NCBI GenBank assembly: GCA_003561215.1
Contig: PWXG01000157.1
Location: 1 to 39,486 of the forward strand
DNA: 39,486 nt
Reading direction: 5' to 3'
DNA from: Thermotogales bacterium
Lineage (GTDB): Bacteria > Thermotogota > Thermotogae > Petrotogales > Kosmotogaceae
In this document: positions 22,548-26,840 of the stretch, one piece after another
Layout: each line of letters starts with the position of its first letter
Numbering within the stretch: position 1 is the stretch's first letter
Made by a program: the position numbers and the translations under genes
The notes under the pieces: generated by a model
Databases searched by the model: none
Told to the model about the DNA's origin: nothing
What the model saw: only the letters and a program-made list of their open reading frames with translations

Positions 22548-22979
22548 ATCATGTGAATGGATATAGATAGATCACTTGATTGCTCTGGACGTTCTTAAGC
22601 AGAAGGTCTCTCTATTCGATAACACGGACACCGGCGCGGGTTTATTTCGTACTTCTGAAGTCTGTTCCTCCCAGGAAGCTGAAGAGTTTCTGAACGCTGA
22701 ATACCTTCCTCAGACAACCTGGAGTGTGGTTTGAGGATTCAGACGAGAGATTCCGCGACCTCCTGATCTCTTCTGTAACCGACAGAATAGAAACAAGTGG
22801 GTATAAAGATTGTGGCTCTTCGAGCAAGAAGGGTAGGTCATCAAGCACCTTACGTGTTAACTGGACTAGCCTGTAATAGAGTTATCTATTCAGATCCACT
22901 GAGATAGAAGCGACTGTTGATCGGAACTCTGGCCGTCACTCTGTAGAGTTTCGTGCAGAATCAGAAAAGAGGTGATCAG
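22548..22979. other. Spacer containing a possible frameshifted gene remnant
   Basis: About 430 bases between the DUF6544-like gene and the cobalamin-binding gene. The part at 22576-22876 looks coding on the plus strand across one frame change (listed separately). The last 100 bases presumably hold the promoter of the cobalamin operon, but no clear -35/-10 pair is visible. No B12 riboswitch could be recognised. Confidence 0.4.
22576..22876 (+). pseudogene. Possible frameshifted remnant, product unknown
   Basis: From a TTG at 22576 an open frame runs 52 codons (segments such as LDVLKQKVSLFDNTD and SQEAEEFLNAEYLPQ) to a TGA at 22732. The next frame then continues at once with WFEDSDERFRDLLISSV and TDRIETSGYK to a TAA at 22874. 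Both pieces have the composition and codon pattern of the neighbouring genes, and the junction at about 22724-22732 fits one inserted base. I do not recognise the family. There is no good ribosome site. Confidence 0.3.
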
Positions 22980-23636
22980 ATGATTGATGAATTGAGGAGT
23001 TCACTGAAAAAACTCCTTGAAAAAGAGGATCGAGAGGGAGCAGTTAATCTTGTTCTTGATTATCTGAACAAAGATGGAACAAGCGTAACTGAGCTGTACA
23101 TCAAGGTGCTGGTTCCTTTGCTACAGGAATGGGAGTGCAACTATAAAGACAAAGTCCTGTGTATCTGGAAAGAGCACATAATGAGTGCAACAATAAGGAC
23201 GATAATTGAGTGCTGCTCACCATTTGTCAATAAAGAAACAGATTCATCTGGGAGAAAAGGGAAAAAGGGTAAGGTTGTAGTCGTCTGTCCTCCCGAGGAG
23301 CTGCACGAACTGGGTCCCCGCATGGCTGTAGATATCTTCAGAGTGAACGGCTATAATGCGCTTTTCGTGGGAGCAAACACGCCAGTCAATGCTTTTATGA
23401 AAGGCCTGCAGAACTTCACCCCTGATTATGTAGCCATTGGTGTCAGCAACTACTACAACCTCGTAAATACTGCAAAGATGGTAGAAGCTGTGAGACGGAC
23501 ACTGCCAGAAGCCCAGATAGTAGTCTCAGGACCTGCTTTGATTAACAACGAAAAAGCCAGAAAACAGATCGGCGCGGACATCTATCTCGAAGATCTTCAA
23601 TCGATTACCTTGCTCGAGAAGGGGGGGAACAGATGA
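22980..23636 (+). CDS. Cobalamin (B12)-binding domain protein
   Basis: A 218-residue protein with a helical B12-binding cap (about 10-80, ending in IWKEHIMSATIRTIIE) and a Rossmann-like B12-binding domain (about 97-215). The lower-ligand motif DxHxxG appears as E107-L-H109-E-L-G112, so the histidine and glycine are kept and Asp is replaced by Glu. The domain continues with NGYNALFVGANTP and PDYVAIGVSNYYN. There is no DNA-binding or methyltransferase domain. The ATG at 22980 has GAGGTGATC upstream. Its stop overlaps the permease start in ATGA, so it is translationally coupled to the ABC transporter. A sensory or corrinoid-carrier role is inference. Confidence 0.85.
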   Translation: MIDELRSSLKKLLEKEDREGAVNLVLDYLNKDGTSVTELYIKVLVPLLQEWECNYKDKVLCIWKEHIMSATIRTIIECCSPFVNKETDSSGRKGKKGKVVVVCPPEELHELGPRMAVDIFRVNGYNALFVGANTPVNAFMKGLQNFTPDYVAIGVSNYYNLVNTAKMVEAVRRTLPEAQIVVSGPALINNEKARKQIGADIYLEDLQSITLLEKGGNR

Positions 23637-24796
23637 AGTTTGCATTTAGTGTTGCAATGCGTTTTCTTCTTTCCAGTAAGGCTCAGACGCTCCTCATAAT
23701 ACTTGGTATTTCGATAGGAGTATCAGTTCAGCTCTTTATAGGCCTCTTGATTCAGGGTCTTCAGATAGACCTTGTTGATAGCACGATCGGCAACTCTTCA
23801 CAGGTGACGATCATATCAACGCGTGATGATAGAACCATAATGGATTGGCAAGAGCTGATCCAACGACTGGAAGAGTCAGCACTCATGACTGATATAACGG
23901 TAGTTTCCCCTGTTCTGGAAAGCCCGGTGTTCATTGTTAGCACCGAAACCTCTCCATCTGTCATTTACAGAGGACTCGATTTTGATAGGGCCGACGCGAT
24001 ATACGGGATTAAAGACAGGGTCCTCCAGGGTAGCCTACCGGGCAGAAACGAAGTGCTGATCGGCAAGGAACTCTCAGAGGAGCTTGAACTGTTGATCGGG
24101 CAGACGATTACTGTACTCTCTTCTGAGGGAAGAACCCACCAGCTGGTTATTTCGGGAATTTTTGATCTTAGAGTTGCCGGTCTAAACCGTTCATGGGTCC
24201 TTGGAACACTGGAGACCGCTCAAACCATCGCAGAGAAGGAAGGCAGAATAAGTGCGATAGAAATGCAGGTTCTTGAGGTGTTTGATGCTGATATTATTGC
24301 TGCATCTCTTGCTGGAGCTATTGAAGTAGATGGCATCCGAGTAGACAACTGGAAAGATCAGAACCAGCAGCTTCTCAGTGGACTGCAGGGTCAGAGCATT
24401 TCGAGCCTCATGATACAGGTTTTCGTAATCATTGCTGTTGCGCTGGGCATTTCGAGCATACTCGTGATCACTGTTGTTCAGAAATCCAGGCAAATCGGCA
24501 TTCTGAAGGCAATGGGTGTCACAGACAGAACTGCAAGCCTCGTATTCCTCTTTGAAGGTGCGCTGATCGGAATCGGTGGTGCAATTGTGGGTGTTTTACT
24601 CGGGCTCGGATTGAGTATTGCATTCACGACGTTTGCCCTTGGACCTGATGGAGAGCCTGTAGTCGGGCTATATCTGAACTACGGATTTATAGCTCTTTCT
24701 GGGCTTATCGCCTTCGGGGCCTCGGTAATCGCTGCAGTGATTCCTGCCAGGAGATCTGCAAGACTGACACCCGTTGAGGTGATACGTAATGGCTAA
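23633..24796 (+). CDS. ABC transporter permease, MacB/LolC (FtsX) type
   Basis: A 387-residue membrane protein with one N-terminal helix (about 12-38) and a large periplasmic MacB-like domain (about 40-260). Three C-terminal helices form the FtsX domain (about 262-290, 307-335, 350-378), with the coupling segment QKSRQIGILKAMGVTDRTASLVFLFEGALIG. It ends in PARRSARLTPVEVIRNG, the standard tail of the family. Type VII ABC systems of this kind move lipoproteins, peptides or lipids out of the inner membrane rather than import solutes. It overlaps the upstream B12-binding gene by 4 bases and the downstream ATPase gene by 8. The substrate is unknown. Confidence 0.92.
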   Translation: MKFAFSVAMRFLLSSKAQTLLIILGISIGVSVQLFIGLLIQGLQIDLVDSTIGNSSQVTIISTRDDRTIMDWQELIQRLEESALMTDITVVSPVLESPVFIVSTETSPSVIYRGLDFDRADAIYGIKDRVLQGSLPGRNEVLIGKELSEELELLIGQTITVLSSEGRTHQLVISGIFDLRVAGLNRSWVLGTLETAQTIAEKEGRISAIEMQVLEVFDADIIAASLAGAIEVDGIRVDNWKDQNQQLLSGLQGQSISSLMIQVFVIIAVALGISSILVITVVQKSRQIGILKAMGVTDRTASLVFLFEGALIGIGGAIVGVLLGLGLSIAFTTFALGPDGEPVVGLYLNYGFIALSGLIAFGASVIAAVIPARRSARLTPVEVIRNG

Positions 24797-25475
24797 TATC
24801 GTCGAACTCAAGAATGTCAACAAGTTTTATGGAACAACAGTGAAAACCCAGGTACTCTTCAACATAGACCTGAGTTTTGAAGTAGCAAGTTTCAACTCGA
24901 TCATTGGGCAGTCAGGTAGCGGAAAAAGTACTCTACTGAACATATTGGGAACACTGGATAGGCCAACAGATGGGCAGGTACTCATTGATGGCAGGGAAAC
25001 AGGAAGCATGAAGAACATCGACCTTGCTGCATTACGAAACAGGACGATAGGTTTCATATTCCAGTTCCATTATCTGTTGCCTGAATTTACAGCTCTAGAG
25101 AACGTACTCATGCCTTTCAGAGTTTCCAACAGCGCTGTCACAAAAGAAGCATTTGAAAGAGCGGAGGAGCTCATGGAGATTGTCGGTATAAGTCATGTGA
25201 AAAACAATCTTGCAACCAGGATGTCTGGGGGACAGCAGCAAAGAACTGCGATTGCCAGGGCCCTCATAAACAATCCCCGTGTCGTTCTTGCTGATGAACC
25301 AACAGGAAACCTCGATTCGGATACTTCAGAGAAGGTTTTCCGTATGTTGAGGGAGATAAATGAGCGATTCGGTACAACCTTTGTCATTGTGACTCATGAC
25401 CGGAGAATTGCTGAAGAGACCGACAGGATCGTCGAGATCGTTGATGGGCGGATCAGGATGGATCTAGCAAGATAA
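24789..25475 (+). CDS. ABC transporter ATP-binding protein, MacB/LolD type
   Basis: A 228-residue nucleotide-binding protein. It shows Walker A GQSGSGKST (40-48), Q-loop Gln92, signature MSGGQQQR (145-152), Walker B VVLADEPTG (165-173) followed by NLDS, and H-loop His203. It belongs to the LolD/MacB/FtsE-like group and drives the permease encoded just upstream, with an 8-base gene overlap. It would work as a homodimer with two permease copies. No membrane-fusion protein gene follows. Confidence 0.95.
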   Translation: MANIVELKNVNKFYGTTVKTQVLFNIDLSFEVASFNSIIGQSGSGKSTLLNILGTLDRPTDGQVLIDGRETGSMKNIDLAALRNRTIGFIFQFHYLLPEFTALENVLMPFRVSNSAVTKEAFERAEELMEIVGISHVKNNLATRMSGGQQQRTAIARALINNPRVVLADEPTGNLDSDTSEKVFRMLREINERFGTTFVIVTHDRRIAEETDRIVEIVDGRIRMDLAR

Positions 25476-25608: not shown

Positions 25609-26169
25609 TCAGCAAGAGTCTTTCTCGGCAGAAACAATCCATCTTGCGGCTTGGAGAACGTCTTTTGCAACGAAATCTGGTTCAATGTCTTTCCAGAGGT
25701 ATCGGAATTCTGCAAGGGATCCTTCTCCAAGGCCAGTGCGTACCAGAACGGCCATGCAACCAACAGTTCGAGCCAGGGCCATGTCCCATGCCCCTGTATC
25801 TCCAACAATGTAGGAGCTGGGAAGGTCAATGGAGAAATCTTTCCTGGCCTGCATCACCATGCCCGGCGAAGGTTTCCTGCATTTACATATGTCTTCAGAG
25901 GAATGAGGACAGCAGTAGAACGCATCAATGTGAGCACCTTTGGAAGCAAGCTGATCTTCCAGTTCTTTGACACGGCTGAGATAGTCATCCCACGTAAACA
26001 GGCCCTTCGAGATATGGCTCTGATTTGTTATCACGATTGCCAACATGCCAGCACTATTGATGAGACGAATCGCATCTTCAGCAAATGGGAAGAAGGAGAA
26101 TTGCATGATGTCATCAAGACCTTCTCCACCAAGAGTTCCTTGAAGATCCAGAAATACGGCTCTCTTCAT
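25609..26169 (-). CDS. GmhB-like HAD protein lacking the second catalytic Asp
   Basis: A 186-residue HAD-superfamily protein resembling D-glycero-D-manno-heptose 1,7-bisphosphate phosphatase and histidinol phosphatase. Motif I reads FLDLQGTL: nucleophile Asp8 is present, but residue 10, usually the acid/base Asp, is Gln. Motif II (VITNQSHISKG), the zinc loop (Cys87, His89, Cys95, Cys97, then RKP) and motif IV (VGDTGAWDM) follow the GmhB pattern. With Gln at +2, normal phosphatase turnover would be impaired or altered. The ATG at 26169 has GGAG 7 bases upstream; the longer frame to 26250 lacks one. No heptose pathway genes are nearby. Confidence 0.8.
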   Translation of the reverse strand: MKRAVFLDLQGTLGGEGLDDIMQFSFFPFAEDAIRLINSAGMLAIVITNQSHISKGLFTWDDYLSRVKELEDQLASKGAHIDAFYCCPHSSEDICKCRKPSPGMVMQARKDFSIDLPSSYIVGDTGAWDMALARTVGCMAVLVRTGLGEGSLAEFRYLWKDIEPDFVAKDVLQAARWIVSAEKDSC

Positions 26170-26214
26170 GTTGTGGCTCCAAAAGAGAATGTTTATCAGC
26201 CTCATATTATCACG

Positions 26215-26229
26215 CTGTATCGAATACAG
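26215..26229. promoter_or_regulatory. Palindrome in the divergent HAD/GPx spacer, candidate operator
   Basis: A perfect inverted repeat CTGTAT-CGA-ATACAG lies between the divergent HAD and glutathione peroxidase genes, 46 bases from the HAD start. Its size and place suit a dimeric repressor, but no regulator family is indicated and it could be chance. Confidence 0.3.
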
Positions 26230-26363
26230 GGACTTTTCAACAGGTGCCATGCAAGTGTGACTGCAGTAGAACTCAGTACACTAAGCGTAACATATGCTGA
26301 AGACTACTGGCAGATTCACAATAATGTAGAATCAGATTATCGGACTCAAAAGGGGGTAAACAT

Positions 26364-26840
26364 ATGTCGTTTTTCGACTTTGGTGTTAGAACGATTGAAG
26401 GTTTCCAGAAAAGCCTTGCTGACTACAGGGGTAAAGTGATCCTCGTAGTGAACACAGCAAGCAAGTGTGGCTTCACGCCGCAGTACAAAGGATTGCAGGA
26501 ACTATACAAGAAGTACAAAGACAGGGGATTTGCCGTTCTCGGATTTCCCTCTAACGACTTTCTAAGGCAGGAACCCGGCACGAATGATGAAATCAAACAG
26601 TTCTGCGAGGTTTCTTTTGGTGTGCAATTTCCTATGTTTGAGAAGATAAAGGTGAGGGGAAGAAACAAGCACCCACTCTATGAGTTCTTGACGTCGAAAA
26701 AGACCAATCCCGGGTTTGGTGGATCGATAAAATGGAACTTCACGAAGTTTCTCATAGACAAAGAAGGGAAAATCGTCAATCGTTTCTCATCGAACACCAG
26801 CCCTGAGAGTATCGAACCAGAGATAACCCGGCTCCTTTAG
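26364..26840 (+). CDS. Glutathione peroxidase family (Cys-type thiol peroxidase)
   Basis: A 158-residue cytoplasmic peroxidase of the GPx/BtuE family. Peroxidatic Cys35 sits in NTASKCGFTPQY, so it is a cysteine enzyme, not selenocysteine. Cys81 (KQFCEVSFGV) matches the resolving cysteine of thioredoxin-dependent GPx proteins such as yeast Gpx3. The WNF motif (about 124-126) supplies the conserved Trp and Asn. The usual catalytic Gln in FPxNQF is Asp65 here (FPSNDF), a variant also found in other bacteria. Reduction by thioredoxin rather than glutathione is the likely mechanism. The ATG has AGGGGG 7 bases upstream. It converges on the PPOX-family gene. Confidence 0.95.
   Translation: MSFFDFGVRTIEGFQKSLADYRGKVILVVNTASKCGFTPQYKGLQELYKKYKDRGFAVLGFPSNDFLRQEPGTNDEIKQFCEVSFGVQFPMFEKIKVRGRNKHPLYEFLTSKKTNPGFGGSIKWNFTKFLIDKEGKIVNRFSSNTSPESIEPEITRLL

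Follow-up and report, generated by a model that had tools for sequence, protein, structure and literature searches.

Photoreceptors that use cobalamin (B12) act on DNA or on second-messenger enzymes, in the parts of the published accounts considered here. In the available part of the SignatureFinder paper their light signature has four elements, GxxW, EH, GxxH and GxxxP, the first of which is in contact with the adenosyl group of known light sensors, and the fused outputs named there are helix-turn-helix (HTH), diguanylate cyclase, bilin-binding, GAF, MEDS and other domains, with no transporter among them (PMC11796333). Standalone photocobilins can also regulate a separate enzyme by contact, according to the portion considered of PMC10979010. 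The tRNA desulfidase RudS removes 4-thiouridine, the near-ultraviolet (UV) target in tRNA, and is often encoded in light-responsive operons, among them operons with photolyase and the B12-dependent LitR (PMC11417400, in the part available). Here we analyse a stretch of 39,486 nucleotides, the window, from a Thermotogales bacterium (contig PWXG01000157.1, from a genome of 2.22 Mb in 278 contigs), in which the gene of a free-standing B12-binding protein is followed by the permease and ATPase genes of an ATP-binding cassette (ABC) exporter, at positions 22980 to 25475. Our preferred reading, to which we give a probability of about 0.5, is that the trio is one system, where a cytosolic cobalamin sensor with the fold of CarH and the photocobilins controls its own LolCD-like exporter in a light or UV stress response.

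The B12 protein and the exporter form a dedicated module, and of this we are nearly certain. A set of 151 genomes, relatives as well as outgroups, was searched with the B12 protein and separately with the permease. Close homologues of the B12 protein (E-values up to 1.1e-29) are found in 21 of them, all Thermotogota, and in all 21 the permease gene follows the B12 gene; an ATPase match is also present in 20, and in the remaining locus, L023, the contig ends within the permease. Permease matches of at least 41% identity are confined to these 21 genomes and present in all of them, each with a single gene (in one case split over two contigs), and the next-best matches have at most 29% identity and lie outside the class. 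Among named genomes there were 267 pattern matches, 205 of which encode a relative of the B12 protein. The best 80 of the 205 were examined, and the permease is immediately 3' of the B12 gene in 79; at L102 the contig stops 143 nt past the match. These 80 loci span Thermotogota, Clostridia, mollicutes, Chloroflexi, Lokiarchaeota, Sigynarchaeum, Thermoplasmata and Methanomassiliicoccaceae. A sample of 341 Clostridia genomes, evenly drawn from the class of Clostridium punense, contains 15 with a B12 match of 211-267 bits, and the permease follows it in 14, the 15th (L123) lying at the edge of a contig. The linkage is nearly absolute, homologues do not mostly lie away from the transporter genes, and the defined joint role that the first-pass annotation had suggested is strongly supported. 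That annotation had also named stand-alone relatives from clostridia; for close relatives this does not hold, as those found here have the transporter too.

Sensor and permease distances are correlated (r 0.58), with little information beyond shared descent. The alignments took 111 of 121 and 124 of 141 listed; those omitted were neighbouring open reading frames (ORFs) shorter than 90 aa, one locus of a near-identical pair and some others, and L027, a fragment, was left out of one locus set. One genus-level group (g25) shows what looks like decay of the module, as the B12 gene of L027 has one in-frame TAA and the permease gene of another genome (G052:C60:774-1937) has two TGA stops. A search for spore-former markers in 48 outgroup genomes found none.

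All three genes are on the forward strand of the window. The B12 gene encodes 218 aa at 22980-23636, from an ATG at 22980 to a stop that ends at 23636, and has a good ribosome-binding site, AGAGGTGAT, ahead of it (the region at 22968-22979 on the same strand reads AGAGGTGATCAG). The ATGA at 23633-23636 is shared by the stop of the B12 gene and the start of the permease gene (23633-24796, 387 aa), and the permease gene in turn shares 8 nt, in the region 24789-24796, with the ATPase gene (24789-25475, 228 aa). The overlap of 4 nt is by far the commonest spacing between sensor and permease genes, found in 72 of 116 loci from overlapping sets. The first-pass annotation had called the B12 gene translationally fused to its neighbours by overlapping codons; the overlaps are there, but the fusion is not, and these are three separate proteins whose genes are probably coupled in translation. 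Promoter-like sites in the window number 3 against 3.9 expected, with none 5' of the module, and the same scan gave no terminator-like site; the scan is uninformative on both counts. The idea that a glutathione peroxidase gene (26364-26840) is a stress gene linked to the module was rejected, as an ORF on the opposite strand (25609-26250) intervenes.

The B12 protein matches PF02310 with 37.8 bits, above the curated cut-off of 32.1, and is laid out as a helical cap (about residues 1-90) and a Rossmann B12 domain (about 95-215). The cap profile PF02607 stays at 18.5 bits, under its cut-off of 23, though the AlphaFold2 model (75 sequences) predicts both helical cap and Rossmann fold with a mean predicted local distance difference test (pLDDT) score of 93.1 and a predicted template modelling score of 0.90, in line with the cap that had been proposed. 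Pfam and NCBIfam searches found no methyltransferase, mutase or DNA-binding domain in it, which agrees with the earlier description. The protein begins at the cap, without an N-terminal DNA-binding domain, as seen in the model and in the profiles, which show B12 domains only; it does not reach the curated full-length model of CarH/LitR (NF052513, 38.5 bits against a cut-off of 400), and it has no bilin-binding globin-like domain, the chain stopping after the B12 domain.

The closest fold is that of the photocobilins SasPcob (8j2w/8j2x) and AbDPcob (8j2y), which match the predicted structure at Z 25.5, 25.2 and 23.2, the best being 8j2w (Z 25.5, root-mean-square deviation 2.3, 205 residues aligned). 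They are followed by CtMerR (Z 21.4), the methylamine corrinoid protein 3ezx and MetH (20.4), CarH (19.3) and AerR (19.2). With Foldseek the photocobilins and CtMerR again lead; MttC, a corrinoid protein, comes next, and CarH after it. The margin over the corrinoid carriers is 3 to 5 Z units for the photocobilins, 1 for CtMerR and none for CarH, and the predicted fold alone does not demonstrate light sensing. In comparison with the photocobilins, the module protein lacks the bilin-binding globin domain (218 aa against about 330) and the GxxW element, and its partner is an ABC transporter. With the CarH/LitR repressors and CtMerR (8jbs) it has in common the cap and Rossmann fold and the EH, ExH and GxxxP motifs, but it differs in having no DNA-binding domain and no GxxW, and in being paired with a transporter.

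The likeness to corrinoid carriers raises the question of whether the protein is a corrinoid methyl carrier that serves a methyltransferase, with the exporter merely co-transcribed. Corrinoid proteins of the MtgC, MtaC and MttC types do turn up as weak matches in profile searches, and at two Asgard loci (L053 and L058) two proteins of the URO-D family, a superfamily which includes methylcobamide methyltransferases, are encoded divergently from the module. Beyond these two loci, however, the neighbour families listed show no prominent methyltransferase family, and photocobilin folds fit the B12 protein better than carriers do, so that we consider this explanation extremely improbable.

Within an alignment of 96 members, the cap motif E65-H66 is invariant (95/95), the predicted lower-ligand motif [DE]xHxxG, here E107-x-H109-x2-G112, keeps E and H in 96/96 and G in 94/96, and G131 and P135 of the GxxxP motif (G131-x3-P135) are kept in 95/95. 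Cysteines are also a feature of the family. All 116 loci are GxxW-less, and two cysteines often stand in place of that element, with a Cys-x6-9-Cys pattern before the EH motif in 89 of them; Cys103 is nearly invariant (93/96). In the window protein the pair is Cys53 and Cys61, 8 residues apart and just N-terminal to the EH motif; both are present in 75 of 95 rows, neither in 17, and one in 3. The module could thus hold a redox or thiol sensor, not a light sensor, in which Cys53/Cys61 and Cys103 would read an oxidant, sulfide or another cobalt ligand and gate the exporter. The joint presence or absence of the pair, the conservation of Cys103 and the incomplete light signature are all in its favour. 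Against it, the permease tree has no more than 6 and 5 changes of the two cysteines, with 3 independent pairs of changes on supported branches, and their paired loss is not significant; the photolyase-linked members described below occur both with and without the pair, and a redox sensor leaves the linkage to photolyase and RudS unexplained. We regard such a sensor as possible but unlikely, and the paired cysteines as a proven redox switch were rejected, the independent changes being too few.

The gene context also speaks for light or UV. In a survey of 971 neighbouring ORFs from the best 80 of the 205 loci, DNA photolyase was the commonest family after the trio itself, at 9 loci. It comes after the ATPase on the same strand at L082, L097 and L100, giving the order B12-permease-ATPase-photolyase; at L049 and L087 the same-strand run is B12-permease-ATPase-RudS-photolyase, RudS being the TudS-DUF1722 gene; and in a related group (L066, L070, L076 and L079) the photolyase is on the opposite strand, 1.4-2.3 kb past the ATPase. 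In L149-L151, which come from three genomes of the Clostridia sample that are related to one another, the same-strand run is photolyase-RudS-B12-permease-ATPase. The association resembles the LitR operon in the part considered of PMC11417400. FAD_binding_7 matches the photolyase of L149 but, at 1e-5, not the one in the window genome, and therefore different types of photolyase are involved. A Band_7/SPFH protein is encoded directly behind the ATPase of L149 (L149:10615-11643), and similar ORFs follow in L150 and L151.

The association is seen also at the level of whole genomes. In the Clostridia, photolyase is present in 6 of 15 genomes with the module and in 1 of 326 without it (p 1.6e-8, Fisher test with kinship ignored, as in all tests here), and DUF1722 of at least 120 bits, which is RudS-like, in 5/15 against 4/326 (p 9e-6). 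DUF1722 of any kind is found in 10/15 and 21/326, respectively, and a second kind of B12 protein, in open frames of 323-384 aa, in 5/15 and 2/326. Catalase, taken as a control, shows no association (1/15 against 31/326, p 0.78), which speaks only against a general stress bias. Among 103 Thermotogota, photolyase occurs in 13 of 21 genomes with the module and 18 of 82 without (p 7e-4), and the two families nearest to the window genome have 9/12 against 1/5 and 3/4 against 3/17. A cobalamin adenosyltransferase is encoded in the window genome.

Several observations weigh against a simple photoreceptor. The GxxW of the light signature was not found; G-x2-W-x9-EH occurs in 0 and W-x9-EH in 1 of the 116 loci, again a count over overlapping locus sets. 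The GxxH position is usually E/D-x-x-H, E-x-x-H in the window protein, and has its G in only 8 of 96 members. In the other Thermotogota families the association with photolyase is gone (1/5 with the module, 14/60 without), and among 50 module genomes searched out of the best 80 of 205 loci, 35 lack photolyase and 15 have it. The sole photolyase of the window genome lies on another contig than the module, and no RudS was found by Pfam among the annotated neighbours of the module in the window. The Fisher tests are uncorrected for relatedness, and lifestyle could lie behind some of the association with photolyase and RudS that is seen across genomes. The loss of GxxW may mean that the photochemistry is altered, that the upper ligand is a different one or that the protein now responds to another signal. 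A light or UV role of the module is thus favoured but not established, because GxxW is lost, most module genomes have no photolyase and the window copy is not beside such genes. The B12 protein is likely to sense something and to gate the exporter. The most far-reaching version of this, in which anaerobes from Thermotogota and Clostridia to Asgard archaea would have a new class of B12 photosensory system, a GxxW-less free-standing cobalamin sensor that directly gates a private, light- or UV-switched ABC exporter, partly together with photolyase and RudS, we put forward tentatively and think somewhat improbable as it stands.

The transporter half is of the MacB/LolCD type, as had been annotated. 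The permease matches FtsX (54.7 bits) and MacB_PCD (44.0 bits) in Pfam and the ATPase ABC_tran (111.6 bits), and both stay below the NCBIfam cut-offs of the Lol models (TIGR02212, 128.9 bits against 362.45; TIGR02211, 259.9 against 307.75). The permease model (71 sequences, pLDDT 89.5) has a fold of the LolC/LolE type, the best match being LolE (9rld_E, Z 31.6, root-mean-square deviation 4.0, 379 aligned), and a streptococcal exporter (5xu1, Z 25.5), YtrEF (22.4), HrtB (21.4), MacB (20.1) and FtsX (18.1) follow. The permease fold and the LolD-like ATPase are shared with LolCDE and the MacB superfamily (HrtBA, MacB, YtrEF, FtsEX). LolCDE has two different permease genes, whereas the module has one, and the window genome has a single permease match at E 1e-20; MacB is one chain, whereas ATPase and permease are here in separate genes. 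Unlike LolCDE and its kin, the module is found in archaea and mollicutes, and the B12 protein is present in all loci examined. Archaea and mollicutes have no outer membrane, which argues against transport of outer-membrane lipoproteins. No MacA-type adaptor appears in the list of the 25 commonest neighbour families, the whole genome not having been searched. An attempt to name the substrate by structural likeness was dropped, as LolE, HrtB and MacB all match the permease.

HrtBA, a heme exporter, belongs to the same superfamily, and the B12 protein is inseparable from the transporter. It is therefore conceivable that the protein hands a corrinoid or related tetrapyrrole, such as cobalamin damaged by light, over to the exporter or else captures such a compound. 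LolE and LolC are however far better matches to the permease (Z 31.6 against 21.4 for HrtB), no cobalamin riboswitch was found in the window (an Rfam gathering search, whose sole match was one tRNA), and the listed neighbour families give no context of corrinoid synthesis or uptake. The first-pass annotation had offered regulator, light or corrinoid sensor and cargo partner as roles; the light or stress sensor is favoured by the fold and by the linkage to photolyase and RudS, and the corrinoid cargo is left as a rival that we find quite unlikely. Another view would be that the ABC pair works like FtsEX, described as a signal transmitter in the part available of PMC11627006, and relays a light or redox signal from the B12 sensor to a partner in the envelope. 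The extracellular domain of the permease is variable (mean major-residue fraction 0.48) and conservation is high in TM1, TM2 and the coupling segment (0.78-0.88), as would suit a transmitter, and FtsX is among the structural matches. An exporter is equally expected to have a variable extracellular domain, and since no conserved envelope partner gene stands beside the module in the neighbour families surveyed, we find a transmitter very doubtful.

In our preferred reading, with the sensor controlling its own exporter, the sensor would be synthesised in step with the permease, bind cobalamin in a base-off form through His109, as predicted, and presumably dock at the cytosolic face of the permease/ATPase complex. 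The trigger would come at the upper face of the cobalamin, where either blue, green or near-UV light would remove the adenosyl group or a redox change would take place, and the shape or oligomeric state of the sensor might then be altered, as suggested by its relatives. This would switch the ATPase, and a hydrophobic or light-toxic compound would be exported across or out of the membrane, going by the gene context as part of a light or UV stress response.

Other B12 sensors were met in the same survey. In Proteiniclasticum a fusion of an HTH domain (Cro/CI type) to a B12 domain with the full W-x9-EH is encoded divergently from the module and its downstream photolyase (L097:6886-7800 and L100:6886-7827, both on the reverse strand), and may regulate the operon as a CarH-like protein whose DNA-binding domain is not of the MerR type. 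More distant Thermotogota homologues of about 341-369 aa (L030, L031, L033 and L034) adjoin GGDEF proteins, identified by eye, and are likely to form pairs leading from B12 to cyclic di-GMP. Like the module, these pairs place a free-standing sensor with an EH motif beside its presumed output; they differ in that the output is diguanylate cyclase-like and that L030 and L031 retain W-x9-EH. With the HTH-B12 fusion, the GGDEF pairs and the ABC pair, there are therefore at least three outputs for one kind of sensor domain: DNA binding, GGDEF and the ABC pair. A clostridial B12 sensor protein with an EH motif also adjoins what looks by eye like an HD-GYP protein (L134:1453-3571, reverse strand).

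We found no description of a B12-permease-ATPase module in the literature searched, most subscription journals and preprints being outside the search. Neither PMC11796333 nor PMC10979010 has the word "permease" in its main text, and "transporter" occurs 0 times in the former and 1 time in the latter, in the name of STAS. What is new here is the partner, the ABC pair, while the fold of the sensor is known. The module occurs widely among anaerobes, both bacterial and archaeal, and such anaerobes are, to our knowledge, seldom regarded as light-responsive. The published light signature would overlook it, because GxxW is gone. The run of photolyase, RudS, B12 protein, permease and ATPase is a concrete and testable near-UV stress operon, and an ABC transporter as the output of a B12 photoreceptor would, if true, amount to a new kind of wiring and might serve as an optogenetic part.

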